The translations under genes were made by a program, and so were the position numbers. A model generated the notes under the pieces. The model was not told where the DNA came from, did not search any database, and worked only from the letters and a program-made list of their open reading frames with translations. This document shows, piece after piece, positions 38,864-61,549 of a stretch of DNA of 64,000 nucleotides; position 1 is the stretch's first letter, and every line of letters begins with the position of its first letter. Source of the DNA: Corallococcus sp. EGB. GTDB taxonomy: Bacteria > Myxococcota > Myxococcia > Myxococcales > Myxococcaceae. The stretch is from NCBI RefSeq assembly GCF_019968905.1, contig NZ_CP079946.1, forward strand, positions 7,103,356-7,167,355. The letters are read 5' to 3'.

Positions 38864-39523
38864 GGGGCACTCCTCTTGGGGCGGCTGAGTGGGGCGTGCA
38901 GCAGCTAACCACCGCGCGCGCGACGCGCGGCCCAATGCCTCACGCCGCTGTGCATGTCCAAACACGCGCAAGGCCAGGATCTGCCCTGGGGGGAGGGGGC
39001 GCTCCCCGACAGTGTTCACTGTCAGGAGCGCGCCCTGGACCTGGGTTCACCGAGACATGGCGCGAGCAGCGCGAGCCCATGCAAGCCGTCACGCAAAGGA
39101 TGTGCTCAGTGCGGCGATGGCGGCATTGAGCAGCCCTCCAGGAGCGAAGGACAGGAAGCCATCATGGGAGGCGGTCGCCATGTCGAGAGAGGCCGCCTCG
39201 GCCGTGATGGTGAAGGAGCGCACACCCCGTTGGGGCTGAGCCGGGCTGCTGAAGAGGACGTTCGCCCTGGACGTGTTCGCGCACGTGAGGGGAGCAGGAG
39301 GGGCGAGAGCGATTCTGGAGCACCTGGGGTTGCCCACGGCGAGTGCGCACCTGGCCCCTGCCGCGCCCAGATCACGCCGCCATGGTGACCGGCGGCAGAA
39401 GACTCCCCCGTGAGCTGGTGCCGGTGGGGGCGGATACGCCAACTGCGGGATGAGGCCCTGCTCCGCCTCACCCGCAGGACATGTCGCCTCCGACAAGCAA
39501 CCGCGCTTCGAGGAACACGTAGA
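38864..39523. other. Intergenic region of 660 bases
   Basis: I see no gene that I can support. A minus-strand frame of 135 codons (39089-39496) has a plausible C-terminus (SFTITAEAASLDMATASHDG) but no start context or family. The clearest structure is an imperfect palindrome at 38997-39035 built on GACAGTG-TT-CACTGTC with GC-rich outer arms. The region also holds the promoter of the sugar dehydrogenase gene. Confidence 0.5.
38997..39035. promoter_or_regulatory. Imperfect palindrome upstream of the sugar dehydrogenase gene
   Basis: GACAGTG and CACTGTC flank TT, extended by GGGCGCTCC and GGAGCGCGCCC. It is about 135 bases before the sugar dehydrogenase start. It could be an operator or a cruciform-type terminator. 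Confidence 0.35.
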
Positions 39524-40135
39524 CTACGGCACGTAGCAAATCCCATTACACTTGTAAGACCACAAAGTTCCGCAACCATTAACCTGATCGCAATTGGCGG
39601 AGTAGCACTTATGGCCGGAGCCACAATAGTCAGATGCCGTCGAACAGGAACACTGGACTCCTGGCACCGCAGCAGCCTCTTCGGGGCCGAGCTGCGCGAT
39701 GATGTTCGCGAGTTCGTCCTTCGTGAAGACCTCTGAGCCGCGCGTCTTCAAGGCACCAATCTGGTACGAACCGCTGGCCGCGGTAGCATTCTGAAAGAAC
39801 TCGGGCGTCAGCGTGGCAATTGCCTGTTGAATGAACTCCACCTGCTTAGAGTTCAGCGCGGGATGCTCCTGGAGGTACTGCTCAAGGTGGGCCCTCCAGA
39901 GCGCCGCCTTCGTCTCAGGCGACGATGCGGAATAGATAGCCTTTCGATACATCATTGGCTGCTGAATGAATTCAGCATATGTCCTAGGGAGCGAATCCGC
40001 ATGCTGCGCCACCCATGCATTGGCCTCCTCGCAACCACTCGCCAATGCGTGAGCAGGGAGCAATCCAAGCACGCCCATGGCCATCGCAACGACCAAACCA
40101 GCCATTCGACTCGACATCCTGATCCAGATATTCAT
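39524..40135 (-). CDS. Fulvocin C-like bacteriocin precursor
   Basis: A 203-aa secreted precursor. The signal peptide (MGVLGLLPAHALA) is followed by a helical pro-region of about 120 residues (CEEANAWVAQHADSLP, YLQEHPALNSKQVEFIQQ) and a C-terminal Cys-rich part of 44 residues (160-203). That part begins near CSCSTASDYC, identical to the start of fulvocin C of Myxococcus fulvus as I recall it, and keeps eight Cys and the later GCGTLW/GCGTGW-like motif. Eight Cys suggests four disulphides. The cleavage site before QCSC is inferred. GGAG lies 6 bases before the start. Base composition is clearly lower in GC (some 60-base lines are 47-53%) than all neighbours, and it lies just downstream of ssrA, both signs of transfer. 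No immunity gene is evident. Confidence 0.88.
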   Translation of the reverse strand: MNIWIRMSSRMAGLVVAMAMGVLGLLPAHALASGCEEANAWVAQHADSLPRTYAEFIQQPMMYRKAIYSASSPETKAALWRAHLEQYLQEHPALNSKQVEFIQQAIATLTPEFFQNATAASGSYQIGALKTRGSEVFTKDELANIIAQLGPEEAAAVPGVQCSCSTASDYCGSGHKCYSANCDQVNGCGTLWSYKCNGICYVP

Positions 40136-40740
40136 TTCCACTCCGGCATTGAGAGGGAACCACACCTGTCGGGACAAACTCCTCAATCGGGCCACGGGAG
40201 CCCAGGCCATCCCTATCAACAACCATCAACATGTAAAACCTCCATAACCAGATAGACCCAACCTCCGTCCAAAGGGAAACACCTCTTTGCCCTTTGGGGC
40301 CGGCGGCGCGAAGCCAGACTTGCATGGAAAGCCAATCTCAACCGTGACGTCAGGCTCGAAGGCTGAAGGGTAATCGGCGTGGATTGATGCCCGATCCTTT
40401 GCGAAGACTCGGCGCGCTTCGAGCGGGCGCTTGCGAGCCCTGTCCGAGCCGATGTCCCGGTGCAGAACCAGCGTAGGTGTCCGAGCGTCAGCGGACGAAT
40501 GTCACGAACGTAAAGCGCGTGAGCTCGAACCGGGTAGGTGTCGATTCGTGCAAGAACGTTCGCAAGCCACGCGAATGATTCCAGGATGAGCCCCTGCGCT
40601 GGAGCCGCGCATCACGCTTGGCGGCCGAGGCTTCGTGGTCCCCCACAACGGCCAGCGGCCGGTGAAGCGGGACGTGGCCCCAGGCCTCGACACGCCCTTG
40701 CTGGCGTGGGGCAAGACAGGGGCACCGGCCGTGCGGTGGA
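40136..40740. other. Intergenic region between the bacteriocin gene and ssrA
   Basis: About 600 bases with no supported gene. It holds the upstream region of the bacteriocin gene, including an 8-bp inverted repeat CCAAAGGG/CCCTTTGG (40269-40297) 134 bases before its start. Both strands have short open frames, none with a start, ribosome site or known motif. GC content rises from the bacteriocin side to the ssrA side. Confidence 0.5.
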
Positions 40741-40744
40741 AAAT

Positions 40745-40782
40745 GAAAGGGCCCGTAATCCCTGAGGATTACGGGCCCTTTC
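40745..40782 (-). terminator. Intrinsic terminator of ssrA
   Basis: A 17-bp perfect stem: GAAAGGGCCCGTAATCC (40745-40761) and GGATTACGGGCCCTTTC (40766-40782) with a 4-base loop, starting 3 bases after the mature 3' end of tmRNA. On the minus strand it is followed by ATTTT. The longest perfect stem in the window. Confidence 0.9.
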
Positions 40783-40785
40783 AAG

Positions 40786-41146
40786 TGGAGGCGGAGGGAA
40801 TCGAACCCTCGTCCGAAAGCCGTCGGCTCTTCGACCCTACGTGCGTAGTCCGCGATTTGCTACGTCACCAGGGCTCCCACGGACGGGATACCTGATGCCG
40901 GTCCTGGAAAGGTCTCGCCGCCTCGGGCCCAGGCACCCTCGGCAGCCAGTCCGCATTATGACGGCCCATCCCTACCCCACGGACCGAGAGCAGGGGGACC
41001 GCGCACTAGAGACTGCTAGTTAGGCAGCCAGCGCGAGCTCAACGTTGTCGTTGGCTTTTGTGTTGTTGTCGGAAGTTTTACGAGCACCCAACAAGCTCGG
41101 CACGCGTCTCGAACGTCATTGCCCCCGTCGAAGCCAGGTCGCCCCC
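40786..41146 (-). ncRNA. ssrA: tmRNA (trans-translation RNA)
   Basis: About 361 nt. The 5' end reads GGGGGCGACCTGGCTTCGAC and the 3' end GGTTCGATTCCCTCCGCCTCCA, which pair as the tRNA-like acceptor and carry the T-loop. The tag reading frame at 41020-41055 encodes ANDNVELALAA followed by TAA; the ALAA end is the usual proteolysis signal. The 3' CCA is not encoded (CTT follows the discriminator A), so it must be added. It rescues stalled ribosomes with SmpB and marks peptides for degradation. Ends are estimated from pairing. Confidence 0.95.
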
Positions 41147-41191
41147 GGTTCGATGTACGTCATGCGGCCCCAACGGCTCCGCACTCGACCT

Positions 41192-41219
41192 ACATTAACC
41201 GCTGAACGCCCCCCGTCAA
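41192..41219 (-). promoter_or_regulatory. Probable ssrA promoter
   Basis: On the minus strand TTGACG (41219-41214) and TAATGT (41197-41192) are 16 bases apart, about 45 bases before the mature 5' end of tmRNA. This fits a housekeeping sigma promoter with a short processed leader. Confidence 0.6.
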
Positions 41220-41303
41220 TCCTCCTGAGGCCACGACGGTCGCCCCTGCTACATCCCCTCCCCTGCCTGCTCCTCGGGCAGGCCCCTCACTGGAGACACT
41301 TCC

Positions 41304-47698: not shown

Positions 47699-50600
47699 AT
47701 GGGGACATTTGAAGGGGAAGGTATTGGCGCGGAGCTGACCCCGGAGCAGAAGCGGGCGCGGCTGGCGGAGCTGTTGCGCGGCAAGGTCCGCCCCACGCAT
47801 GCACCGGTGTCCTTCAGCCAGGAGCGCATGTGGTTCCAGGACCGCCTGAGCCCGGGCAGCGCGGCCTTCAACATCCCGGTGCGCGTGCGGTTCTCCGGCG
47901 TGCTCGACGTGGCGGTGCTGCGCGCCAGCCTCCAGGCGCTGGTGCGGCGTCACGCGCCGCTGCGCACCACGTTCATCGAACAGGATGGCCGGCCGCTGCA
48001 GCACATCGCGCCGGCGATGGAGCTCGCGCTGGCGCTGGTGGACCTGCAGTCGCTGCCCGCTCCCGAGCGGGAGGCCGAGTCCCTGCGGCTCATCACGGAG
48101 GAGGCGCGCCGGCCCTTCGACCTGGAGAAGGGGCCGCTGCTGCGCACCGTGCTGTACCGGCTGGACGCGCTGGAGCACGTGCTGTTGCTCAAGCTGCACC
48201 ACATCATCACGGACGGCTGGTCCATGGGCGTGCTGGTGCGCGAGCTGAGCGCGCTGTACCCGGCGCTCGCGGAAGGGAGGCCTTCACCGCTGGCGCCGCT
48301 GCCCATGCAGTACGCCGACTATGCGGGCTGGCAGCGCGAGTTCCTGCGAGGCGAGGTGCTGGAGTCGCACCTGGCCTTCTGGCGCGGCCGGTTGGATCCG
48401 GACGCGGTGCTGGAGCTGCCCACGGACCGGCCCCGTCCGGCGGTCCTCTCCGGACGCGGCGCGCGCCTCCACGCGGTGCTGCCCGTGCCGCTGGTGGAGT
48501 CGCTCAAGGCGCTCGCGCTGGCGGAGGGCAACACGCTGTTCGGCGTATTGCTGGCGGGCTTCCAGGTGCTGCTGTCGCGTTACAGCGGCCAGCAGGACGT
48601 GGTGGTGGGCACGTCCGTGGCGGGCCGTGGCCGCGCGGAGCTGGAAGGGCTCATCGGGCTGTTCACCAACTACCTGGCCTTCCGCACGGACCTGTCCGGA
48701 CAGCCGTCCTTCCGCGAGCTGCTCGGCCGCGTGCGCGAGACGACGCTGGAGGCCTACGCGCACCAGGACGTGCCCTTCGAGAAGCTGGTGGACGCGCTGA
48801 AGCCGGAGCGCCAGCTGAGCGTGAATCCGCTCTTCCAGGTCGCGCTGACGCTGCAGAACGCGCCCCTGCCGCCGCTGCGGTTGCCGGGGCTCGTCCTGGA
48901 TGCGGAGCCGGTGGACAACCGCACCAGCAAGACGGACCTGTCGCTCATCGCCATGGAGGTGCCCCAGGGCATGCGCCTCACGGCGGAGTACAACACGGAC
49001 CTCTTCGACCCCGGCACCATGCAGCGGCTGCTCGCGCACCTGCGCACGCTGCTGGAGGGCGCGGTCGCGGATCCGGGCCGGCGCGTCGGTGACCTGCCCC
49101 TGATGGACGCGGCCGAGGCGGCGCGGCTCCAACGCGATTGGGCCGGAGATGCCGCGCCCTTCCCGGAGGACCGCTGCCTGCACACGCTCTTCGAGGCGCA
49201 GGCGCGGCGGACACCTGACGCCGTGGCCGTCCGGTTCCAGGGGCGGACGCTCACGTACGCGCAGCTGGACGCGCGCGCCAACCAGCTCGCGCACGCCCTG
49301 CGCCGCCGGGGCGTGGGGCCGGAGGTGCGGGTGGCCTTGAGCGTGGAGCGCTCGCTGGAGGTGGCCGTGGGGCTGCTCGGCATCCTCAAGGCGGGCGGCG
49401 CGTGGGTGCCCGTGGATCCGATGCTGCCTCGGGAGCGGCTGGCCTTCATGCTGGAGGACAGCGGCGCCACGGTGCTGGTGACGCAGGCTCCGCTGCTGGA
49501 GCGCTTCCCTGAGGGTGCTCGCGCCCGGGCGCTGTGCCTGGACGTGGAGGGGGAGCGGCTCGCGGCAAAGAGCGTGCTGGCGCCTGCCTCCGGCGTGGGG
49601 CCGCGGAACCTGGCATACGTGCTCTACACCTCCGGCAGCACGGGCACTCCCAAGGGAACCGCCATCGAGCACCGGGGCGTCTGCAACCTGGTCACGCATG
49701 AGGCCACGGCCTACGGCATCGGGCCGGGCAGCCGCGTGCTCCAGTTCGCCAGCCTGTCGTTCGACCTGTCGGTGGAGGAGATCTTCACCACGCTGTGCAG
49801 CGGCGCGACGCTGGTGCTGGCGCCGCGGGAAGACCTGATGCCGGGCGAGCCGCTGCGCACGCTGCTGCGCGACGAGGCCCTCACCGTGATCAGCCTCACG
49901 CCCGCGACGCTCGCGGCCACGGCGCCGGAGGGGCTGCCCGCGCTGCGGACCGTCATCTCGGGCGGTGAGGCGCTGCCTCCGGAGGTGGTGGCGCGGTGGG
50001 CGCCGGGCCGCACGTTCCTCAACACGTATGGCCCCACGGAGGCCACCGTGATGGCCACGCTCACCGGGTGCACGGCGGACGGCCGTGTGCCCTCCATCGG
50101 CCGGCCGCTGGCCAACGTGCGCGCGTACGTGCTGGATGCTCGGGGCGGGCTCGTGCCCGTGGGCGTGAAGGGTGAGCTGTACCTGGGCGGCGTGGGCGTG
50201 GCGCGAGGCTATTCGGGCCGGCCCTCGCTCACGGCCGAGCGCTTCGTACCGGATGCCTTCTCTGGCGAAGCGGGCGCGAGGCTGTACCGCACGGGCGACG
50301 TGGTGCGCTGGCGCGAGGACGGCACGCTGGAGTTCGTGGGCCGCGCGGACGCGCAGGTGAAGGTGCGCGGCTTCCGCATCGAACTGGGCGAGGTCGAGGC
50401 CGCGCTGGCGAAGCTGCCCCCGGTGCGTGACGCCGTGGTGGTGGCGCGCGAGGACGGGCCCGGCGGCAAGGGGCTGGTGGGCTACGTCGTGCTTCGCGAC
50501 GGTGTCACCGCCACCGGAACCGAGCTGCGGACGGCCCTCAAGGACGCCCTGCCCGAGTACATGGTGCCCTCCGCCGTCGTGGTGCTGCCCGCGCTCCCGC

Positions 50601-53600
50601 TCACGACCAACGGCAAGGTGGACCGCAAGGCCCTGCCGGCTCCGGACGTGGCGGGAAGCGATCCCCGGGAGTACGTGGCGCCACGCACCCCCACCGAGCA
50701 GCGCCTGGCGGGGCTGTGGCAGGAGCTGCTCGGCGTGACTCGCGTCGGAGCGAATGCTCACTTCTTCGACCTGGGTGGGCACTCGCTGTTGGCCACGCAG
50801 GCGCTCAGCCGGATCCGCCAGACCTTCACGGTGGACCTGCCCCTGCGGCGCCTGTTCGAGTCCCCCACGCTGGAGGCCGTGGCCCGCCTCATCGACGAGG
50901 CGCTCGCAGGCAAGGGGCCGCCGGCTGCGTCACCGACCAAGCCACGGGAGGCCCGTGCCCGGCCCGTGCCCATGGTTCCGCTGGAAGACGTCGCGCGTGA
51001 GTGGGCGGCCCGCGCCGCAGCGCAGCCGCGTGACACGGTGACGGTTCTCGCGGATGAACACCGTCAGCAGGTGCTGGTGGAGTGGAACGCGACCGCAGCC
51101 GAGTACCCGCGTGACTCCACGCTGCCATCAGTCTTCCAGCAGGTGGTGGCCCGCTTCCCGGAAAAGGTGGCCGTCGAGTTCGGGGATGCGCGCCTCACCT
51201 ACCGGGAGCTGGACGCACGCGCCAATCAGCTCGCGTGGCACCTGCGCTCACTGGGCGTCACCGCTGACGCGCGCGTGGCCGTGGCCCTGGAGCGCTCGCT
51301 GGACCTCGTCGTCTCCCTCGTCGCCATCCTCAAGGCCGGTGCGGCCTACGTACCGCTGGACCCTGCCTATCCACGCTCGCGCCTGGACGCGATGGTGGAG
51401 GATGCACGGCCTCACGTCCTCCTCACCTCTCGCGCGCTGCTCTCGCGGCTGCCTTGCGAGAACTTGCGGCCCGTCGTGCTGGAGGAACTGGCTCTCGACT
51501 CGCTGCCCACGCATGCGCCCTCCTCGGGCGCCCTGCCCCAGAGCCTCGCGTACATCGACTTCACCTCCGGCTCCACTGGCAGGCCCAAGGGCGTCGGCAC
51601 GCCTCACGCCGCCGTGCTCCGCACCCTCCTCGGTGTCGACTACGCTCGCTTTGGGCCCGATGAGACGCTGCTGCTCATGGCGCCCCTCGCCTTCGATGCC
51701 TCCACCCTGGAGGTCTGGGGCGCGCTGCTGCATGGCGCGAAGCTGGCCGTCTTCCCCGCCCACCCGCCGACGGACCCGCTTGAGTTGGAGCGCGTGTTGG
51801 TGCGCCACGGCGTGACGACGCTGTGGCTCACCGCGGGCTTCTTCTCCCAACTGGTGGACTCGCACCTGCCCGCGCTGCGCTCGCTGCGCCAGGTGCTCAC
51901 CGGTGGCGACGTCGTCTCCGCTCCTCACGTGCGTCGCGTGCTGGAGCTCCTGGGCCTCCCCGTCATCGCGGGCTATGGCCCCACCGAGACCACCGTCTTC
52001 GCCACCAGTCACCGCTTCACCCATGCCTCGCAGGTAGGTACGTCCGTCCCGCTGGGACGCCCCCTGGGCAACACCCAGGTGTACGTGCTGGATGCTTCGG
52101 GACACCCTCTTCCTCCGGGTGTCCAGGGAGAGCTCTACGTCGGGGGCGATGGACTGGCTCGCGGCTACGTGGGCCAGCCCGCCCTCACCGCGGAGCGCTT
52201 CGTCCCTGACCCGTTCTCCTCCACTCCTGGCGCGCGCCTCTACCGCACGGGCGACCTGGCCCGTTGGCGTGAGGACGGTGTGCTGGAGTTCCTCGGCCGC
52301 GCGGACGCACAGGTGAAGGTGCGCGGCTTCCGCATCGAGCTGCCTGAAATCGAAGCCGCCCTGCGCTCTCACCCTGACGTCCGCGAAGCCGTCGCAGTCG
52401 TCCGTGAGGACGTGCCCGGCGACAAGCGGCTCGTGGCCTACGTCGTCGCTGCCCCATCCCTGGACATGGCGGAGCTGCGCTCCTTCCTCAAGCACCGGCT
52501 GCCCGACTACATGGTGCCCTCGGCCCTGGGCCACCTCGACGCCCTGCCCCTCTCCTCCAACGGCAAGGTGGACCGCAGGGCCCTGCCGGCCCCCTCCACC
52601 TTCCAGACTCGCGCACGGACGCGCCCGGCGCGCACGGACACCGAGCGGCTGCTCACCACGCTCTGGGAAGAGGTCCTCCAGGCGGGCACCGTCGGCGCCG
52701 AGGACAACTTCTTCGACCTGGGCGGCAACTCGCTCAGCGCCACGCAGCTCCTCTCGCGCATCCGGCGCGCGTTCCAGGCGGAGCTGTCCATCGCGGACTT
52801 CTTCGCGGCCCCCACCGTGGAAGCCATTGCCCGGCGCCTGGAGTCCCAGGGCCCGGTGCGTCCCGCGTTGTCAGTGCCCTCGCTCAAGCCGGTGCCACGC
52901 GATGGCGGACTGCCCCTGTCCTTCGCCCAGCAGCGGCTGTGGTTCTTCGCGAAGCTGGAGCCCGACAGCACCGCGTACAACCTCCCGTTCGTCATGCGGC
53001 TCGAAGGAGCCCTGGACGTGCCCGCGCTCACTCGCGGCCTGCGCGACCTGCTCCAGCGCCATGAATCCCTGCGCACCACCTTCCGTGAGCAGGAGTCCGG
53101 CCCCGTCCAGGTCATCGCGTCCGCCCCCTCGCTGCCCGCCGCGTGGATGGACCTGAGCGCCCTGCCCGACGCGGAGCGCGCGCTCGGCACCATCCTCGAC
53201 GACGAGGCACGACAGGTCTTCGACCTGGAAGCCGGCCCGCTGTGGCGCGTCCTCGTGGTTCGCATGGACGAGCAACACCACCTGCTGCTGCTCACCATGC
53301 ACCACGTCATCTCCGACGCCTGGTCCATGGGCGTGCTGCTCCAGGAGCTGACCACGCTGTACGCCGCCCACGCCGAGAGCCGCGCCCCCCACCTGAAGCC
53401 GCTGCCCGTGCAGTACGCGGACTTCGCCGTCTGGCAGCGCGGCTGGCTGCGCGACGCGGCGCTGGAGTCGCAGCTCGGCTGGTGGCGCCAGCAACTGCAC
53501 GGCGCACCGAAGGCCCTGGAGCTGCCCACGGATCGCCCCCGGCCCGCGACACAGACCTTCCGTGGCGCTGTGGTGCCCTTCCAGTTCTCGCGTGAGCTGT

Positions 53601-56600
53601 CAGACGCGATGCACGCGCTCTGCCGGAGCGAGGGCGTCACGCCCTCCATGGTGGTGCTGGCCGTGTTCCAGTTGCTGCTCTCGCGCTACAGCGGCCAGGA
53701 GGACATCTCCGTGGGCTCGCCCATCGCGGGCCGCACGCAGGCGGAGACAGAGGGGCTCATCGGCTTCTTCGTCAACACCCTGGTCCTGCGCACGAAACTG
53801 GACGGCGACCCGAGCTTCCGCGAGCTGCTCGCGCGCGTGCGCGACGTGGCCCTGGGCGCGTACGCGCACCAGGACGTGCCCTTCGAGAAGCTCGTGGAGG
53901 CGCTGAAGCCAGAGCGCGACCCGCGCCGCCCGCCTCTCTTCCAGGTGATGCTCGCGTACCAGAACGCTCCCATGCCGGAGACGCTGAGCACGGGCCTGAA
54001 GCTTCAGCCGCTGGAGCCCCGGGGCGGCACGGCGAAGTTCGACCTCACCCTCGCGCTCAACGACACCGCCGGAGGGCTGAAGGGCCTGCTCGAATACAAC
54101 ACCGACCTCTTCGACGCCGCGACCGCCAGCCACATGGTGGGGCACCTGCGCGTCCTGTTGGACAGCGCCCTCCACGCTCCGGAGCGCCGCCTCTCCGCGC
54201 TTCACATGCTCACGCTCGCGGAGCGCGGGCTCCTGCTCCACTCCTGGAGCGAGGCCGGCAACGCCTCGGCGGAGGATGCCTCCCTGCACCGGCTCCTCCA
54301 GGCCCAGGCGCTGCGCCACCCCGACACAGTCGCCGTCGAACACGAAGGCCACACGCTGACCTGGGCGGAAGCGTTCCGCCGGGCCCGCGAGGTCCTCCGG
54401 GAGCTGCGCATGCGCGGCGTGGTGGCCCTGCCTCCCGCGCCGCCGCTCGTCCCCGTCCCGCGCACCGGCCCGCTGCCGCTGTCGTTCTCACAGCAGCGGC
54501 TGTGGCTGATTGATCAGCTTGAGCCGGGCAGCGCCGCCTACAACATCTTCCTGGCCCTGCGCGTGGAGGGCGCGCTGGATGTGGCCGCGCTGGAAAAGGC
54601 CTTCGCAACGCTCATCGCCCGCCACGAATCGCTGCGCACCGTCTTCGTCTCCCAAGGCGGAGAGCCCGCCCAGGTCATCCTCCCCGAGGTGCCCTTCGCA
54701 CTGGACGTGGTGGAGCTGGGCGAAGCCTCCCGTGAGGTGCTGGAGGCGCGGCTGCGAGAAGAAGCGCGGCGCCCGTTCGACCTGACACGCGGACCGCTGC
54801 TGCGCGTGTCGCTGCTGCGCTTGGGAGCCGAGGCGCACGTGCTGTGGCTGAACATGCACCACATCGTCTCCGACGGGTGGTCCATGGGAGTGCTCGTGCG
54901 CGAGCTGTCCGCGCTGTATGGCGCCCATGTTTCGGGCCGGCCCTCGACGCTGGCACCCCTGCCTGTCCAGTACGTGGACTACGCCGCGTGGCAGCGCGAC
55001 TGGCTGAAGGACGAAGCCCTGGAGCACCACCTGTCCTACTGGCGCCGTCAGCTCGCCGGAGCACCGCCGCTGTTGGAGCTGCCCACCGACAAGCCACGCC
55101 CGCGCGTCCTGTCCCACCAGGGAGCGCAGGTCCCCGTGCGCCTGCCGGGCTCGCTGTCGGAGTCCTTCCAGGCGCTGTGCCAGCGCGAGGGCGCCACGCT
55201 CTTCATGGGCCTGGTGACCGCGTGGCAGGTGCTGCTTGCGCGCTACGCAGGGCAGGAGGACATCACCCTCGGCTCGCCCATCGCCGGCCGCACGCGCGAG
55301 GACACGGAGGGGCTCATCGGCTTCTTCGTCAACACGCTGGTGCTGCGAACGCACGTCGACGCGAAGGCGCCCTTCCGCCAGGTGCTGGCCCAGGTGCGCG
55401 CCACCACGCTCGCCGCCTATGAGCATCAGGACGCGCCCTTCGAGAAGCTGGTGGAGGCGCTGCAACCCCAGCGCAGCCTGAGCCACTCGCCGCTCTTCCA
55501 GGTGCTGATCGCCCTGCAGAACGCGCCGACGCAGCCCCTGTCGCTGCCAGGTGGATCCGCGCCGCTTCGCCTGCTGCCCCTGGAGCAGGAGGAGCAGACG
55601 ACCCAGTTCGACCTGACGCTGGCCCTGGCTCCGACACCCCAGGGACTCCAGGGCGCGTTGAGCTACCGCACGGACCTGTTCGAGGCCGCCACCCTCCGCC
55701 GGATGGCGGAACATCTGCGCGTGCTGCTGGAAGGCGTGGTGGCGAAGCCGGACGAAGCCGTGGGGCTGCTGCCCATGCTCACGGCCGCGGAGCGTCAGCA
55801 GGTCCTGGTGACGTGGAACCAGACGCGGGCGGAGTATCCGCGCGACGCGACGATCCCCCGCCTCTTCGAAGCGCAGGCCCGGCGCACGCCGGAGGCCGTC
55901 GCGGTGGTGAGCGGCGAACAGCGGCTGACCTATCAGCAACTGGAGCTCCGGGCGAACCGGCTGGCCCACCGGCTGCGCAAGCTGGGCGTAGGCCCCGAGT
56001 CGCGGGTCGGCCTATGCGTGGAGCGCACGGCGGACGTGGTGGTGGGGACGTTGGGCATCCTCAAGGCGGGCGGCGCGTACGTGCCGCTGGATCCGAGCTA
56101 TCCGAAGGAGCGCCTGGGCTGGCTGCTCGAAGACGCGGACGGTCCGGCCCTGGTGATGCATTCGCGGCTGCGGGAGTTCCTGCCCGCCTTCACCGCGCAG
56201 GCGGTGTGCCTGGACACGGACGCGGACCTCCAGGAGGGACCGTCCACACCGCCCTCGGTGGAGGTCCACCCGGAGAACGTGGCGTACCTCATCTACACGT
56301 CCGGAAGCACGGGGCGCCCCAAGGGCGTGGCGGTGACGCACCGGAACGCGGTGGCGTTCCTGACGTGGGCCACGGAGACGTTCACGGAGGAGGAGACGAA
56401 GGCCGTGCTCGCGGCGACGAGCCTCAACTTCGACCTCTCCGTCTTCGAGCTGTTCGCGCCGCTGATCCGGGGCGGCAGCGTGGTGGTGGTGCAGAACGCC
56501 CTGTCCCTGGCCGAAGCGAAGCCAGACGCCGAGGTCACGCTGATCAACACGGTGCCCTCGGCGATGGCGCAGCTGGTGAAGCTGGGGGCGGTGCCGCTGT

Positions 56601-59600
56601 CGGCGCAGGTCATCAACCTCGCGGGCGAAGCGCTGCCGGAGACGCTGACGAAGGCCGTGTACGCGCTGCCCTCGGTGAAGAAGCTCTACAACCTCTACGG
56701 CCCGTCGGAGGACACGACGTACTCGACGTGGTCGCTGGTGGGGCGCGAGGAGGTTCCGAACATCGGCCGGCCTCTCACCAACACGCGGGCGTACGTGCTG
56801 GACAAGTTCCTCCAGCCGGTGCCGGTGGGAGTAGCCGGAGAGCTGTACCTGGCGGGCGAAGGCCAGGCGCGCGGCTACCTCCAGCGGCCTGAGCTGACGG
56901 CGGAGAAGTTCCTCCCTGAGGTGTACGGCCCCGAAGGCAGCCGCATGTATCGCACGGGAGACCGGGTGCGTTACCGCGCGGATGGCGTGCTGGAATACCT
57001 GGGCCGGGTGGACTTCCAGGTGAAGGTGCGAGGCTTCCGCATCGAACTGGGTGAAGTGGAGTCCGCGCTGCGCCAGCAGGAAGCGGTGAAGGACGCGGTG
57101 GTGGTGGCGAAGGGCGAGGGCGCGGAGAAGCACCTCGTGGCGTACGTGGCACCGAAGGCAGGCGCGACGATTGAAGCGCAGGTGCTGAGGACGCGCCTGC
57201 GTCAGCGCTTGCCGGAATACATGGTGCCGGGAACGGTGGTGGTGCTGGAGGCGCTGCCGCTCAACGCCAACGGCAAGGTGGACCGCAAGGCCCTGCCGGA
57301 GCCCGACGCGCCGGCGTCCGTCAGCACGTACGAAGCGCCGCGCACGGCGCTGGAAGCGAAGCTGGCGGCCATCTGGGCGGAGGTGCTGCGAGTGCCCCGG
57401 GTGGGTGTACAGGACGACTTCTTCGCGCTGGGCGGCCACTCCCTGCTGGCCACGCAGGTGGTGTCGCGGGTGCGCACGGAGACGGGCGTGGAGCTGCCGC
57501 TGCGCGCGTTGTTCGAGGCGCCTTCCGTGGCGTCGCTCGCCTCGCGCATCGAGGGCGGCTCGCATCCCCGGCAGGCCGTGCGGCGTCCTCCGCTGGTGCC
57601 TGTTCACCGCACCGGCCCACTGCCGCTGTCCTTCGCGCAGCAGCGCCTGTGGTTCCTCGACCGGCTCCAACCGGGAAGCGTCCACTACAACATCCCCGCC
57701 GCCTTGCGGCTCGACGGCCCGTTGAGCGCCGAGGCGCTGTCTCGAAGCCTCCAGGAGCTCGTCCACCGTCACGAAGCCCTGCGCACCACGTTCCACGCAC
57801 GTGAGGACGGAGAGCCGGTCCAGCACCCGCATCCGCATGTGGAGCTGGTCGTGCCCCTGGTGGAGCTGCGCCACCTGCCGGAGGCGGAGCAGCCCGAGGA
57901 GGTCCGCCGGCTGGCCCAGGAAGAAGCGCGCAAGCCCTTCGACCTTTCGCGTCCGCCCCTGATGCGCGCCACGCTGCTGCGCCTGTCGGAGCAGCGTCAC
58001 GTCGTGCTCGTCACGTTGCACCACATCGTCTCGGACGGTTGGTCCAACCGCATCCTCGTCGAGGAACTGGGAGCGCTCCATGCGGCGTTCTCGCGGGAGC
58101 AGCCTTCGCCCTTGCGGCCCCTGCCGCTCCAGTATGCGGACTACGCCGCATGGCAGCGGGACTGGCTCCGGGACGAGGTGCTGGAGCAGCAGGTGCAGTG
58201 GTGGAAGCAGCAGCTCGACGGCGTGCCGCATGCGCTGGAGCTGCCCACGGACAAGCCTCGCCCGGCCGTGCAGACCTACCGTGGCGCGCGGGTGCCCGTG
58301 GTCCTGTCGGAGAAGGTCGCGCAGGGGCTCAAGGCCCTCTGCCAGCAGGAGGTCGTCACGCCATTCATGGCGCTGCTCGCGCTCTGGCAGATCCTGCTGG
58401 CCTTCTGCTCCGGGCAGGAGGACTTCGCCGTCGGCTCGCCCATCGCGGGCCGTGAGCATGAACAACTGGAGGGGCTCGTCGGATTCTTCGTCAACACGTT
58501 GGTGCTGCGCGCCTACGTGGACCGCCGCGATTCCTTCCGCCAGGTGCTGCGCCGGGTGAAGGAGGTCGCGCTGGGGGCCTACGCCCACCAGGACCTCCCG
58601 TTCGAAAAGCTGGTGGAGGAGCTGAAGCCAGCGCGTGACCCGAGCCGGTCGCCGCTATTCCAGACGGTCTTCACGCTGCAGGACCCCGCACCTTGGTCAC
58701 CGCGCGCGGACGCACTGACGATGCACGCGCTGGACGTGGAGGACACCACGGCCAAGTTCGATCTGGAGTTGAACCTGGCGGAGTCCTCCGACGGGTTCGT
58801 GGGAACTCTCGGCTACAACACCGACCTGTTCGAGCCGCGCACGGCCACTCGCATGGCGGAGCGACTCCGCATGTTGGCGGAAGGGCTCGTGGCCCGGCCC
58901 GGAGCGCCCCTGGGGGCCGTATCCCTGCTGACGGAGGCAGAGCGTCAGCAGGTGCTGGTGGAGTGGAACGCGACCGCGGCCGAGTACCCGCGTGACTCCA
59001 CGCTGCCATCAGTCTTCCAGCAGGTGGTGGCCCGCTTCCCGGAGAAGGTGGCCGTCGAGTTCGGGGATTCGCGCCTCACCTACCGGGAGCTGGACGCACG
59101 CGCCAATCAGCTCGCGTGGCACCTGTGCTCACTGGGCGTCACCGCTGACGCGCGCGTGGCCGTGGCCCTGGAGCGCTCGCTGGACCTCGTCGTCTCCCTC
59201 GTCGCCATCCTCAAGGCCGGTGCGGCCTACGTACCGCTGGACCCTGCCTATCCACGCTCGCGCCTGGACGCGATGGTGGAGGATGCACGGCCTCACGTCC
59301 TCCTCACCTCTCGCGCGCTGCTCTCGCGGCTGCCTTGCGAGAACTTGCGGCCCGTCGTGCTGGAGGAACTGGCTCTCGACTCGCTGCCCACGCATGCGCC
59401 CTCCTCGGGCGCCCTGCCCCAGAGCCTCGCGTACATCGACTTCACCTCCGGCTCCACTGGCAGGCCCAAGGGCGTCGGCACGCCTCACGCCGCCGTGCTC
59501 CGCACCCTCCTCGGTGTCGACTACGCTCGCTTCGGCCCCGACGAGACGCTGCTGCTCATGGCGCCCCTCGCCTTCGATGCCTCCACCCTGGAGGTTTGGG

Positions 59601-61549
59601 GCGCGCTGCTGCATGGCGCGAAGCTGGCCGTCTTCCCCGCCCACCCGCCGGCGGACCCGCTTGAGTTGGAGCGCGTGTTGGTGCGCCACAGCGTGACGAC
59701 GCTGTGGCTCACCGCGGGCTTCTTCTCCCAACTGGTGGACTCGCACCTGCCCGCGCTGCGCTCGCTGCGCCAGGTGCTCACCGGTGGCGACGTCGTCTCC
59801 GCTCCTCACGTGCGCCGCGTGCTGGAGCTCCTGGGCCTCCCCGTCATCGCGGGCTATGGCCCCACCGAGACCACCGTCTTCGCCACCAGTCACCGCTTCA
59901 CCCATGCCTCGCAGGTGGGGACGTCCGTCCCGCTGGGACGCCCCCTGGGCAACACCCAGGTGTACGTGCTGGATGCTTCGGGACACCCTCTTCCTCCGGG
60001 TGTCCAGGGAGAGCTCTACGTCGGGGGCGATGGACTGGCTCGCGGCTACGTGGGCCAGCCCGCCCTCACCGCGGAGCGCTTCGTCCCTGACCCGTTCTCC
60101 TCCACTCCTGGTGCGCGCCTCTACCGCACGGGCGACCTCGCCCGTTGGCGTGAGGACGGTGTGCTGGAGTTCCTCGGCCGCGCGGACGCCCAGGTGAAGG
60201 TGCGCGGCTTCCGCATCGAGCTGCCTGAAATCGAAGCCGCCCTGCGCTCTCACCCTGACGTCCGCGAAGCCGTCGCAGTCGTCCGCGAGGACGTGCCCGG
60301 CGACAAGCGGCTCGTGGCCTACGTCGTCGCTGCCGCATCGCTGGACATGGCGGAGCTGCGCTCCTTCCTCAAGCACCGGCTGCCCGACTACATGGTGCCC
60401 TCGGCCCTGGGCCACCTCGACGCCCTGCCCCTCTCCTCCAACGGCAAGGTGGACCTCCAGGCCCTTCCCGCGCTGGAGACCTCCACGTCCGGAAGCCACG
60501 TCACACCCCGCACGTCGCTCGAAGAGCAGCTGGCCAGGTCCTTCACGGAAGTGCTTCGCGTGCCTCGCGTCAGCATCACCGACAACTTCTTCGAGCTGGG
60601 TGGCCACTCGCTGCTGGCCTTGCGGTTGATCGCTTCCATCCGCGTGCACACCGGGCACGCGCTCCCCATGGCGGCCCTCTTCCAATACGGCACCGTCGAG
60701 CAACTGGCACGGCGGCTCCAGCAGGAGACGCCTTCGCTTCCCGCGAACCTCGTGCGACTGGCGGCCGGCGCGGAGGGCATCCGACCCTTCTTCCTCGTCC
60801 ACGGCGGCGGCGGTGGCGTGATGGGCTATTCCGAGCTCGTCCGCCAGCTGGGCCGCGAACGGCCTGTCTACGGCCTGTCCGCGCCGGGCCTGGAGGGCGG
60901 TGCGCTTCCTCCCGCGTCCGTCGAAGCGCTGGCTCGCGACTACCTCGACCAGGTCCGCACCGTGCAGCCGCGAGGGCCGTACCTGCTGGGAGGCTGGTCC
61001 TTCGGAGGACTCGTCGCACTGGAGATGGCGCGTCAACTCCAGGCGCTGGGTGAGCAGGTGGAGCTGCTGGCCTTGATGGACTCCACCGTGCCCACACCCC
61101 AGCCGCGGCCCGAGGCGGATCCGCTCGGCCTGCTGGCGCTTTGGGGTCGGACGCTCGGCGTGCGGTGGCAGGAACAGTCCCTGCACCTGGAGCGGCTGCG
61201 CCGCATGGATGGACGCGAGCGCCTCGCGTACATCCTGGAGCAGCTCCGGAACACGCCCGAAGGCAATCCCGGGCTGGACCTGGAGAGCGCCGAGCGCCTC
61301 CTCGCCCTGCACACGCGGCTCTACGAGGCACAGCGCCGCTACGTGCCCACCGGTGGCTACTCGGGGCCCACGCTCCTCTTCCGCGCCACCGCGGGACAGC
61401 AGCCCGCCTCCGGGGAGCCCCTCTGGAGCACGTGGCTCACGGGGCCCGTCACCATGCACGACGTGCCCGGAGAGCACTACACGATGCTGAGCGCCCCCCA
61501 TGTCTCCACCGTGGCGGAGCACCTGCGCCGCCACCTGCAGGGGCGGTAG
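47699..61549 (+). CDS. Nonribosomal peptide synthetase, 4 adenylation domains, terminal thioesterase
   Basis: One 4616-aa assembly line. Order with approximate residues: C1 (36-470, HHIITDG 167), A1 (485-984), T1 (Ser1029), A2 (1127-1626) without a preceding C domain, T2 (Ser1678), C2 (1738-2170, HHVISDA 1868), a 54-residue A-domain N-terminus (2193-2246), C3 (2258-2700, HHIVSDG 2387), A3 (2714-3200), T3 (Ser3248), C4 (3307-3740, HHIVSDG 3441), A4 (3754-4252), T4 (Ser4304), TE (4355-4616, GWSFGG Ser4434, His4593). All four carrier serines and the TE catalytic residues are present. By-eye pocket residues: A3 like known Ala codes, A2 and A4 alike and near Val codes, A1 unassigned. No epimerase, MbtH or tailoring gene is seen. 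The start has no clear ribosome site. Product unknown; probably a small linear or cyclic peptide. Confidence 0.95.
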   Translation: MGTFEGEGIGAELTPEQKRARLAELLRGKVRPTHAPVSFSQERMWFQDRLSPGSAAFNIPVRVRFSGVLDVAVLRASLQALVRRHAPLRTTFIEQDGRPLQHIAPAMELALALVDLQSLPAPEREAESLRLITEEARRPFDLEKGPLLRTVLYRLDALEHVLLLKLHHIITDGWSMGVLVRELSALYPALAEGRPSPLAPLPMQYADYAGWQREFLRGEVLESHLAFWRGRLDPDAVLELPTDRPRPAVLSGRGARLHAVLPVPLVESLKALALAEGNTLFGVLLAGFQVLLSRYSGQQDVVVGTSVAGRGRAELEGLIGLFTNYLAFRTDLSGQPSFRELLGRVRETTLEAYAHQDVPFEKLVDALKPERQLSVNPLFQVALTLQNAPLPPLRLPGLVLDAEPVDNRTSKTDLSLIAMEVPQGMRLTAEYNTDLFDPGTMQRLLAHLRTLLEGAVADPGRRVGDLPLMDAAEAARLQRDWAGDAAPFPEDRCLHTLFEAQARRTPDAVAVRFQGRTLTYAQLDARANQLAHALRRRGVGPEVRVALSVERSLEVAVGLLGILKAGGAWVPVDPMLPRERLAFMLEDSGATVLVTQAPLLERFPEGARARALCLDVEGERLAAKSVLAPASGVGPRNLAYVLYTSGSTGTPKGTAIEHRGVCNLVTHEATAYGIGPGSRVLQFASLSFDLSVEEIFTTLCSGATLVLAPREDLMPGEPLRTLLRDEALTVISLTPATLAATAPEGLPALRTVISGGEALPPEVVARWAPGRTFLNTYGPTEATVMATLTGCTADGRVPSIGRPLANVRAYVLDARGGLVPVGVKGELYLGGVGVARGYSGRPSLTAERFVPDAFSGEAGARLYRTGDVVRWREDGTLEFVGRADAQVKVRGFRIELGEVEAALAKLPPVRDAVVVAREDGPGGKGLVGYVVLRDGVTATGTELRTALKDALPEYMVPSAVVVLPALPLTTNGKVDRKALPAPDVAGSDPREYVAPRTPTEQRLAGLWQELLGVTRVGANAHFFDLGGHSLLATQALSRIRQTFTVDLPLRRLFESPTLEAVARLIDEALAGKGPPAASPTKPREARARPVPMVPLEDVAREWAARAAAQPRDTVTVLADEHRQQVLVEWNATAAEYPRDSTLPSVFQQVVARFPEKVAVEFGDARLTYRELDARANQLAWHLRSLGVTADARVAVALERSLDLVVSLVAILKAGAAYVPLDPAYPRSRLDAMVEDARPHVLLTSRALLSRLPCENLRPVVLEELALDSLPTHAPSSGALPQSLAYIDFTSGSTGRPKGVGTPHAAVLRTLLGVDYARFGPDETLLLMAPLAFDASTLEVWGALLHGAKLAVFPAHPPTDPLELERVLVRHGVTTLWLTAGFFSQLVDSHLPALRSLRQVLTGGDVVSAPHVRRVLELLGLPVIAGYGPTETTVFATSHRFTHASQVGTSVPLGRPLGNTQVYVLDASGHPLPPGVQGELYVGGDGLARGYVGQPALTAERFVPDPFSSTPGARLYRTGDLARWREDGVLEFLGRADAQVKVRGFRIELPEIEAALRSHPDVREAVAVVREDVPGDKRLVAYVVAAPSLDMAELRSFLKHRLPDYMVPSALGHLDALPLSSNGKVDRRALPAPSTFQTRARTRPARTDTERLLTTLWEEVLQAGTVGAEDNFFDLGGNSLSATQLLSRIRRAFQAELSIADFFAAPTVEAIARRLESQGPVRPALSVPSLKPVPRDGGLPLSFAQQRLWFFAKLEPDSTAYNLPFVMRLEGALDVPALTRGLRDLLQRHESLRTTFREQESGPVQVIASAPSLPAAWMDLSALPDAERALGTILDDEARQVFDLEAGPLWRVLVVRMDEQHHLLLLTMHHVISDAWSMGVLLQELTTLYAAHAESRAPHLKPLPVQYADFAVWQRGWLRDAALESQLGWWRQQLHGAPKALELPTDRPRPATQTFRGAVVPFQFSRELSDAMHALCRSEGVTPSMVVLAVFQLLLSRYSGQEDISVGSPIAGRTQAETEGLIGFFVNTLVLRTKLDGDPSFRELLARVRDVALGAYAHQDVPFEKLVEALKPERDPRRPPLFQVMLAYQNAPMPETLSTGLKLQPLEPRGGTAKFDLTLALNDTAGGLKGLLEYNTDLFDAATASHMVGHLRVLLDSALHAPERRLSALHMLTLAERGLLLHSWSEAGNASAEDASLHRLLQAQALRHPDTVAVEHEGHTLTWAEAFRRAREVLRELRMRGVVALPPAPPLVPVPRTGPLPLSFSQQRLWLIDQLEPGSAAYNIFLALRVEGALDVAALEKAFATLIARHESLRTVFVSQGGEPAQVILPEVPFALDVVELGEASREVLEARLREEARRPFDLTRGPLLRVSLLRLGAEAHVLWLNMHHIVSDGWSMGVLVRELSALYGAHVSGRPSTLAPLPVQYVDYAAWQRDWLKDEALEHHLSYWRRQLAGAPPLLELPTDKPRPRVLSHQGAQVPVRLPGSLSESFQALCQREGATLFMGLVTAWQVLLARYAGQEDITLGSPIAGRTREDTEGLIGFFVNTLVLRTHVDAKAPFRQVLAQVRATTLAAYEHQDAPFEKLVEALQPQRSLSHSPLFQVLIALQNAPTQPLSLPGGSAPLRLLPLEQEEQTTQFDLTLALAPTPQGLQGALSYRTDLFEAATLRRMAEHLRVLLEGVVAKPDEAVGLLPMLTAAERQQVLVTWNQTRAEYPRDATIPRLFEAQARRTPEAVAVVSGEQRLTYQQLELRANRLAHRLRKLGVGPESRVGLCVERTADVVVGTLGILKAGGAYVPLDPSYPKERLGWLLEDADGPALVMHSRLREFLPAFTAQAVCLDTDADLQEGPSTPPSVEVHPENVAYLIYTSGSTGRPKGVAVTHRNAVAFLTWATETFTEEETKAVLAATSLNFDLSVFELFAPLIRGGSVVVVQNALSLAEAKPDAEVTLINTVPSAMAQLVKLGAVPLSAQVINLAGEALPETLTKAVYALPSVKKLYNLYGPSEDTTYSTWSLVGREEVPNIGRPLTNTRAYVLDKFLQPVPVGVAGELYLAGEGQARGYLQRPELTAEKFLPEVYGPEGSRMYRTGDRVRYRADGVLEYLGRVDFQVKVRGFRIELGEVESALRQQEAVKDAVVVAKGEGAEKHLVAYVAPKAGATIEAQVLRTRLRQRLPEYMVPGTVVVLEALPLNANGKVDRKALPEPDAPASVSTYEAPRTALEAKLAAIWAEVLRVPRVGVQDDFFALGGHSLLATQVVSRVRTETGVELPLRALFEAPSVASLASRIEGGSHPRQAVRRPPLVPVHRTGPLPLSFAQQRLWFLDRLQPGSVHYNIPAALRLDGPLSAEALSRSLQELVHRHEALRTTFHAREDGEPVQHPHPHVELVVPLVELRHLPEAEQPEEVRRLAQEEARKPFDLSRPPLMRATLLRLSEQRHVVLVTLHHIVSDGWSNRILVEELGALHAAFSREQPSPLRPLPLQYADYAAWQRDWLRDEVLEQQVQWWKQQLDGVPHALELPTDKPRPAVQTYRGARVPVVLSEKVAQGLKALCQQEVVTPFMALLALWQILLAFCSGQEDFAVGSPIAGREHEQLEGLVGFFVNTLVLRAYVDRRDSFRQVLRRVKEVALGAYAHQDLPFEKLVEELKPARDPSRSPLFQTVFTLQDPAPWSPRADALTMHALDVEDTTAKFDLELNLAESSDGFVGTLGYNTDLFEPRTATRMAERLRMLAEGLVARPGAPLGAVSLLTEAERQQVLVEWNATAAEYPRDSTLPSVFQQVVARFPEKVAVEFGDSRLTYRELDARANQLAWHLCSLGVTADARVAVALERSLDLVVSLVAILKAGAAYVPLDPAYPRSRLDAMVEDARPHVLLTSRALLSRLPCENLRPVVLEELALDSLPTHAPSSGALPQSLAYIDFTSGSTGRPKGVGTPHAAVLRTLLGVDYARFGPDETLLLMAPLAFDASTLEVWGALLHGAKLAVFPAHPPADPLELERVLVRHSVTTLWLTAGFFSQLVDSHLPALRSLRQVLTGGDVVSAPHVRRVLELLGLPVIAGYGPTETTVFATSHRFTHASQVGTSVPLGRPLGNTQVYVLDASGHPLPPGVQGELYVGGDGLARGYVGQPALTAERFVPDPFSSTPGARLYRTGDLARWREDGVLEFLGRADAQVKVRGFRIELPEIEAALRSHPDVREAVAVVREDVPGDKRLVAYVVAAASLDMAELRSFLKHRLPDYMVPSALGHLDALPLSSNGKVDLQALPALETSTSGSHVTPRTSLEEQLARSFTEVLRVPRVSITDNFFELGGHSLLALRLIASIRVHTGHALPMAALFQYGTVEQLARRLQQETPSLPANLVRLAAGAEGIRPFFLVHGGGGGVMGYSELVRQLGRERPVYGLSAPGLEGGALPPASVEALARDYLDQVRTVQPRGPYLLGGWSFGGLVALEMARQLQALGEQVELLALMDSTVPTPQPRPEADPLGLLALWGRTLGVRWQEQSLHLERLRRMDGRERLAYILEQLRNTPEGNPGLDLESAERLLALHTRLYEAQRRYVPTGGYSGPTLLFRATAGQQPASGEPLWSTWLTGPVTMHDVPGEHYTMLSAPHVSTVAEHLRRHLQGR
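51063..52574 (+). repeat. A2 copy of a 1.5-kb near-identical repeat
   Basis: This segment covers the A2 domain and repeats at a constant offset of 7881 bases (58944-60455) with no indels and 19 mismatches by my count, about 98.7% identity. It starts at the end of the C-domain remnant and stops at the A10 motif NGKVD. Confidence 0.9.
54276..54435 (+). other. In-frame remnant of a deleted adenylation domain
   Basis: This stretch encodes LHRLLQAQALRHPDTVAVEHEGHTLTWAEAF and a little more, the ordinary N-terminal 50 residues of an A domain, and then passes directly into the linker and start of C3 (PLVPVPRTGPLPLSF). All A core motifs after A1 and a carrier domain are missing. Confidence 0.85.
58944..60455 (+). 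repeat. A4 copy of the 1.5-kb near-identical repeat
   Basis: Second copy of the segment at 51063-52574, covering A4. Identity ends abruptly after GGTGGACC in the A10 region (GACCGCAGG in copy 1, GACCTCCAG in copy 2), so carrier domains T2 and T4 differ. Confidence 0.9.

Follow-up and report, generated by a model that had tools for sequence, protein, structure and literature searches.

A stretch of 64,000 nucleotides from Corallococcus sp. EGB, referred to here as the window, carries an open reading frame of 203 codons whose product has a hydrophobic N-terminus and a Cys-rich C-terminal tail. This locus raises the question of whether the gene encodes a bacteriocin of the fulvocin C type and, if so, how the killing peptide would be carried, folded and freed.

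Precursor architecture and family membership

The sequence-only reading had described a 203-residue precursor with an export signal and a C-terminal 44-residue tail holding eight cysteines. This layout was borne out by the open reading frame and its translation, in which the tail (VQCSCSTASDYC...CYVP) starts with CSCSTASDYC (Table 1). The assignment to a fulvocin-type precursor was likewise upheld: residues 64-201 matched the NCBIfam subfamily model NF033852, 'bacteriocin fulvocin C-related protein', over its entire length (profile positions 1-150 of 150), with a score of 123.9 bits (E 9.5e-36) against a curated cut-off of 35 bits. Both the pro-domain and the core fell within the match, and we found nothing that excludes membership; furthermore, the window protein places an 8-Cys core at the C-terminus behind a predicted helical pro-region, as do most NF033852 members, although this arrangement is not a written rule of the model. 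Because NF033852 already covers both parts, the family had been catalogued with its pro-region included, and the window gene is an ordinary new member of it. The full precursor, which had been presented as news, thus had a name, and that product name stands on 7 of the 14 matching plasmid records (four others are unannotated and three lack a feature at that place). Pfam and PADLOC returned no match for the window precursor, and PHROGs returned two weak matches only, to families of unknown function (best E 0.074).

Table 1. Features of the precursor gene and of the adjoining ssrA gene, in window coordinates
Feature	Position	Strand	Basis
Prepro-protein gene, 203 aa, NF033852 family	39524..40135	minus	ORF and NF033852 match
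GGAG, Shine-Dalgarno-like, 5 nt before ATG	40141..40144	minus	sequence
Export signal, residues 1-32, ending ...AHALA/SG	40040..40135	minus	alignment; putative cleavage site placed by eye
Pro-domain, residues 33-151, predicted helical, conserved across phyla	39683..40039	minus	alignment and model
Linker, residues 152-159, likely cleavage zone, length variable among relatives	39659..39682	minus	alignment
8-Cys core peptide, C-terminal, residues 160-203	39527..39658	minus	sequence and alignment
ssrA (tmRNA)	40785..41146	minus	3' end is the edge of conserved synteny adjoining the gene

In the alignment of myxobacterial members, A32 of the export signal was invariant and A30 nearly so. A structure model of the window precursor, built on 7 sequences, contained helices at residues 15-19, 32-44, 53-56, 61-70, 73-90, 96-108, 111-115, 120-136 and 139-146. 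The pLDDT block means were 66 for residues 31-40, 75-96 for residues 41-150 and 32-51 after residue 160. The helical pro-region proposed earlier is therefore supported, at the level of a prediction, by the helices modelled between residues 32 and 146. A PDB profile search with the precursor yielded no credible relative (best E 0.036), and a Foldseek search with the model yielded nothing (best E 0.55).

We then compared the tail with fulvocin C of Myxococcus fulvus, using a provisional sequence of that peptide, the published one being absent from the sources searched; the string NCSCSTASDYC was not found in the full-text literature searched. The provisional fulvocin C sequence shares with the window tail the CSCSTASDYC stretch, the eight cysteines, GCGT.W.Y and a CNG near the end, and differs from it in the middle loops. 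The likeness extends beyond CSCSTASDYC, as had been anticipated: 23 of 37 aligned residues were identical to the provisional sequence, and none of 1000 shuffles of the tail's non-Cys residues scored as high. The window gene is not the nearest to fulvocin C, since L002 (same genus, sister species) was identical to the provisional sequence at 34 of 44 aligned residues. The L002 tail begins with ANCSCSTASDYC; should this be how the isolated fulvocin C peptide starts, as we take it to be, the family tail would be released just before the CxC. A sequencing slip in the printed C-terminus of fulvocin C, considered in view of its misfit to the family C-x-G-x-C, was dropped, the printed sequence being represented here by the provisional one. 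Judging by the titles of two references in PMC8708641 (Hirsch 1977; Tsai & Hirsch 1981), fulvocin C was known as a discrete peptide with a primary structure of its own, and PMC8708641 and PMC12333140 mention the bacteriocin in passing.

Conservation, distribution and horizontal exchange

All eight core cysteines and one cysteine at the start of the pro-domain were invariant in 17/17 myxobacterial members. Between the window gene and its closest relative, L005, the pro-domain gave a dN/dS of 0.14 (Nei-Gojobori), and across the 23 pairs (of 136) with more than 55% pro-domain identity the values ranged from 0.14 to 0.40. For the core, dN/dS was 0.00-0.62 in 10 of these 23 pairs, the other 13 being saturated, among them the window/L005 pair (dN 0.153). 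These results show that the gene is under purifying selection.

The gene is present as a single copy in its own genome and was found in 14 of 96 genomes of the host family Myxococcaceae, its own included, at 17 loci; a search of 195 genomes of the phylum returned the same 14 carriers and no others. It was also detected in 8/393 genomes of the order of a Bacteroidota carrier (one of these with pro-domains only), in 13/394 genomes of the class of Saccharopolyspora, in 15/295 Streptomyces genomes (one of these already counted) and in one of six genomes of the family of G327. Plasmids contributed 14 records, 13 from Streptomyces and one from Gemmatirosa, and genome_contigs contributed six loci (two myxobacterial, one Saccharopolyspora, one Gemmatimonadota MAG and two Bacteroidota MAGs); scans of viral_contigs and genome_contigs with single sequences found no relative. 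A 39-row tree paired the window protein with L005, which belongs to another genus (100/99), and scattered the four rows of the window's genus over four places. The Bacteroidota fell on one side of a branch (99/99) and the actinobacteria did likewise, weakly (81/69). The tree does not include L024, L076-L078, duplicates such as L021, the pro-domains that stand alone or the rows from the Streptomyces survey.

The GC content of the gene is about 0.56, compared with 0.64-0.76 in the surrounding region, and the gene lies beside ssrA. Among 15 further genomes of the genus, eight matched continuously at 91-93% from window position 40774-40785 through to the right-hand limit of the query; one more (G025, 85%) matched from 40661 on, and the remaining genomes held pieces. 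None of the matches listed in these 15 genomes overlapped the gene. Moreover, DNA similarity to the L005 locus was limited to window 39525-40092, that is, to the open reading frame alone. Given its patchy distribution, its AT-rich composition, its position beside ssrA at the end of synteny and a tree that conflicts with the genus, the window gene is a single gene passed on by horizontal exchange. Mobile elements commonly insert at the 3' end of ssrA, and here too it (40785-40829) looks like such a landing place; a second copy closing an integrated element was not found within the 64-kb window, and thus no such element is delimited.

Several further observations concern this region and its counterparts. 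Both G018 (L047) and G020 (L053) have the ssrA 3' end a second time as a short copy, at distances from ssrA of about 7.2 kb and 2.6 kb respectively, and the window's own genome holds a 45-base copy of the 40785-40829 segment about 1 Mb away. Just downstream of the gene, window 39041-39368 is a dispersed repeat, short stretches of which recur in dozens of the genus matches listed. Window 47699-61549 encodes a 4616-residue non-ribosomal peptide synthetase with four each of condensation, adenylation and carrier stretches and one thioesterase. In a Gemmatimonadota MAG (L044:4710-7360), ABC ATPase-like and permease-like frames and a weak 6-bladed-propeller match precede the family gene on the same strand.

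The neighbourhood offers little that is shared. A Pfam scan of 10 selected window ORFs recognised a glucose/sorbosone dehydrogenase, a kelch/galactose-oxidase-like protein, an AraC-type regulator, DUF1501, a zinc-type alcohol dehydrogenase and an M16 peptidase, and left four without a match. Two myxobacterial loci have a dehydrogenase in common with the window, another two have its AraC-type regulator, and no neighbour family, apart from the gene itself and antisense or shifted frames, occurred at more than 5 of the 17 loci. No conserved immunity gene was found beside the family gene in the myxobacterial loci. The most widely shared neighbour was a secreted subtilase, which five of the 17 loci (L030-L032, L038, L039) have at a distance of 2 to 5.5 kb; these loci form two syntenic groups, between which the subtilases are about 30% alike, and a search of the 64-kb window with these two subtilases as queries found none. 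Subtilases are common in myxobacteria, and we therefore keep this neighbour only as a lead to a possible processing protease, which may also reflect chance. Since the loci share no immunity neighbour, the similarity is confined to the ORF and no subtilase came up in the window with these queries, we can assign the window gene neither a protease nor an immunity gene; the earlier reading, which had left both unnamed, agrees with this, none being recognisable beside the gene.

Redox modules and free-standing pro-domains in relatives

Actinobacterial members carry an additional N-terminal region. A profile of 12 aligned actinobacterial N-termini gave 31 matches in the PDB at E up to 1, of which 29 were thioredoxins or PDI (best E 0.002), and CxxC and PTL lined up in the two PDB alignments shown. 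Pfam matches of single members were weak (Thioredoxin in 6/12, best 0.0072; DCC1-like in 5/12, best 0.037). By this profile, the pro-domain is preceded by a fused thioredoxin-like domain in 32/33 actinobacterial rows; 12 of these rows had built the profile, and 20 of the other 21 matched it. The CxxC was present in 29/33 rows and missing in L079 (a free-standing pro-domain with no such domain), L068 (at a contig edge), L110 and L113. The 33-row count leaves out the duplicates L021 and L043, L116 (the second piece of L112), L024 (unreadable in one frame) and unfetched plasmid matches; the members carrying a fused CxxC domain are L018-L021, L023, L043, L069-L078, L100-L109, L111, L112, L114 and L115. 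Several annotated gene starts in the plasmid records cut off the thioredoxin-like domain. A model of one such N-terminal domain also gave thioredoxin-like matches (best E 0.0027); as this single-sequence model was poor (pLDDT 57), we take them as an addition to the profile result.

In Bacteroidota, a redox module often lies next door. In 5 of 8 full-length loci (seven from the order survey genomes and L046 from genome_contigs), the next gene downstream encodes a membrane protein of several helices that ends in a TlpA/ResA-like domain (G197, G251, G327, G354 and G420). Four of the five partners passed Pfam thioredoxin/redoxin cut-offs, and L085 matched weakly (best E 0.0043). As a control, the G327 partner was searched against 19 genomes, of which 9 carry the family and 10 do not. 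Near-full-length relatives, defined as starting no later than query position 53 and ending no earlier than 278 (limits chosen after seeing the list), occurred in those five genomes, in every case adjacent to the family gene; one further such match, in G199, contains three internal stops; the other matches in the 19 genomes were shorter, mostly the thioredoxin part alone. The partner was missing in the three remaining loci, G198, G223 and G381; G198 and G223 have in common a weakly matching transglutaminase-like gene, and G223 also has DUF1573. A search of 16 myxobacterial loci together with 12 kb of the window found neither redox module, the best matches having E values of 0.056 and 0.71.

Together, these results suggest that the core cysteines are handled by thiol chemistry in the actinobacterial and Bacteroidota lineages, with either oxidation or reduction and shuffling compatible with the association. 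Proteins of the TlpA/ResA type are often reductases, and the Bacteroidota partner may therefore reduce or shuffle rather than form disulphides. The actinobacterial domain precedes the hydrophobic segment and so would be cytosolic unless the whole protein is exported folded. A search of the literature for pro-domains and thioredoxins in bacteriocins found nothing relevant.

The pro-domain also occurs alone. Five free-standing rows lack the Cys core (L065, L066, L067, L079 and L022), one of them under the family cut-off; the loci noted for such pro-domains are L082:6529-7687, L086, L087, L079 and L022. In G381, a free-standing pro-domain lies directly downstream of a full gene, and G566 has two in one genome, one of which, at 34.1 bits, is just under the cut-off of 35. 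In addition, the actinobacterial L076, L077 and L078 keep the CxxC domain and the pro-domain with a tail of only four cysteines. Given these free-standing copies and 4-Cys tails, the pro-domain can persist without a full core.

A probable prepro-bacteriocin and its alternatives

We consider it probable that the product of the window gene is a prepro-bacteriocin belonging to the fulvocin C-related family. Sec would export the protein; its helical pro-domain (residues 33-151) would fold and hold the 8-Cys tail inactive, and the eight cysteines would pair into four disulphides outside the cytosol. A protease would cut the short variable linker and free a compact peptide of about 42-45 residues, which would pass the outer membrane and kill related bacteria, with the producer presumably protected by some form of immunity. 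For the steps after export we draw on fulvocin C, in its provisional sequence, and on the precedent of PAMP from Propionibacterium jensenii (PMC5756557). That propeptide has 198 residues, 27 of them in the signal, and extracellular proteolysis makes its C-terminal part active. PAMP resembles the window precursor in being a secreted propeptide of about 200 residues with a C-terminal active part activated by a protease outside the cell; the likeness is an analogy of layout and activation, and the passages available of PMC5756557 are silent on a Cys-rich core. The same passages describe propionicin F as a small bacteriocin cut from a larger precursor as an internal fragment trimmed at both ends; unlike the window gene, beside which no such genes were seen, it is accompanied by pcfB-D and the immunity gene pcfI. 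Double-glycine (class II) leaders offer no parallel: a pro-domain of about 120 residues stands behind the export signal, and no GG precedes the core. Neither an ABC transporter nor a lanthipeptide/RiPP modification enzyme was found by Pfam among the 10 selected window ORFs.

That the pro-domain itself is the functional part, as an exported folding or binding protein with the Cys-rich tail as a structural or metal-binding appendage and no released killer, seems unlikely to us. The pro-domains that stand alone and the degenerate tails of L076-L078 speak for it, yet the full 8-Cys tail is kept in every one of the myxobacterial members and stays intact while the linker varies in length. The titles cited in PMC8708641, moreover, present fulvocin C as a peptide in its own right. 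Rather less probable still is that the gene is decaying or silent mobile cargo, acquired horizontally, from which the strain no longer makes an active bacteriocin. Its low GC content and the lack of an immunity gene beside it would fit such cargo, as would the absence of a promoter-like match in 39000-41300 (sigma-70 consensus only; 0.2 expected by chance), whereas the intact reading frame with its Shine-Dalgarno-like stretch, the low pro-domain dN/dS against L005 and the retention of all family cysteines speak against it.

We regard as very improbable a lipid-anchored surface toxin passed by outer-membrane exchange in place of a free bacteriocin. Myxobacteria are known for lipoprotein toxins passed in this way (PMC8546572), and lipobox-like signals were seen by eye in L003 (Corallococcus sp. 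AS-1-6) and in Bacteroidota members. In the window protein, however, no good lipobox was seen by eye, the cysteine lying about 8 residues after the hydrophobic stretch, where the nearest relative has DGC; the lack of an adjacent immunity gene also argues against such a toxin.

The prepro-bacteriocin reading may extend to the family as a whole. As a tentative proposal, one that may well prove wrong, fulvocin-type proteins would be widespread disulphide-rich bacteriocins on pro-domain carriers. Folding of the core would fall to a thioredoxin-fold module dedicated to it, which actinobacteria have as an N-terminal fusion and Bacteroidota often as a next-door membrane TlpA-like protein, or, in myxobacteria, to general cell machinery; free-standing pro-domains, such as the one directly downstream of a full gene, would then be immunity proteins or folding helpers. 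The redox link, which was not seen in the window's own lineage, and the free-standing pro-domains are, as a lead, the part worth following.

The fulvocin references that we found date from 1977 and 1981, and the bacteriocin is otherwise mentioned in passing in the parts available of the full-text literature searched. The window gene now provides a testable fulvocin-type precursor in a sequenced strain, and the cross-phylum comparison, not met with in the literature searched, offers a lead on how such peptides fold and perhaps on how their producers are protected.
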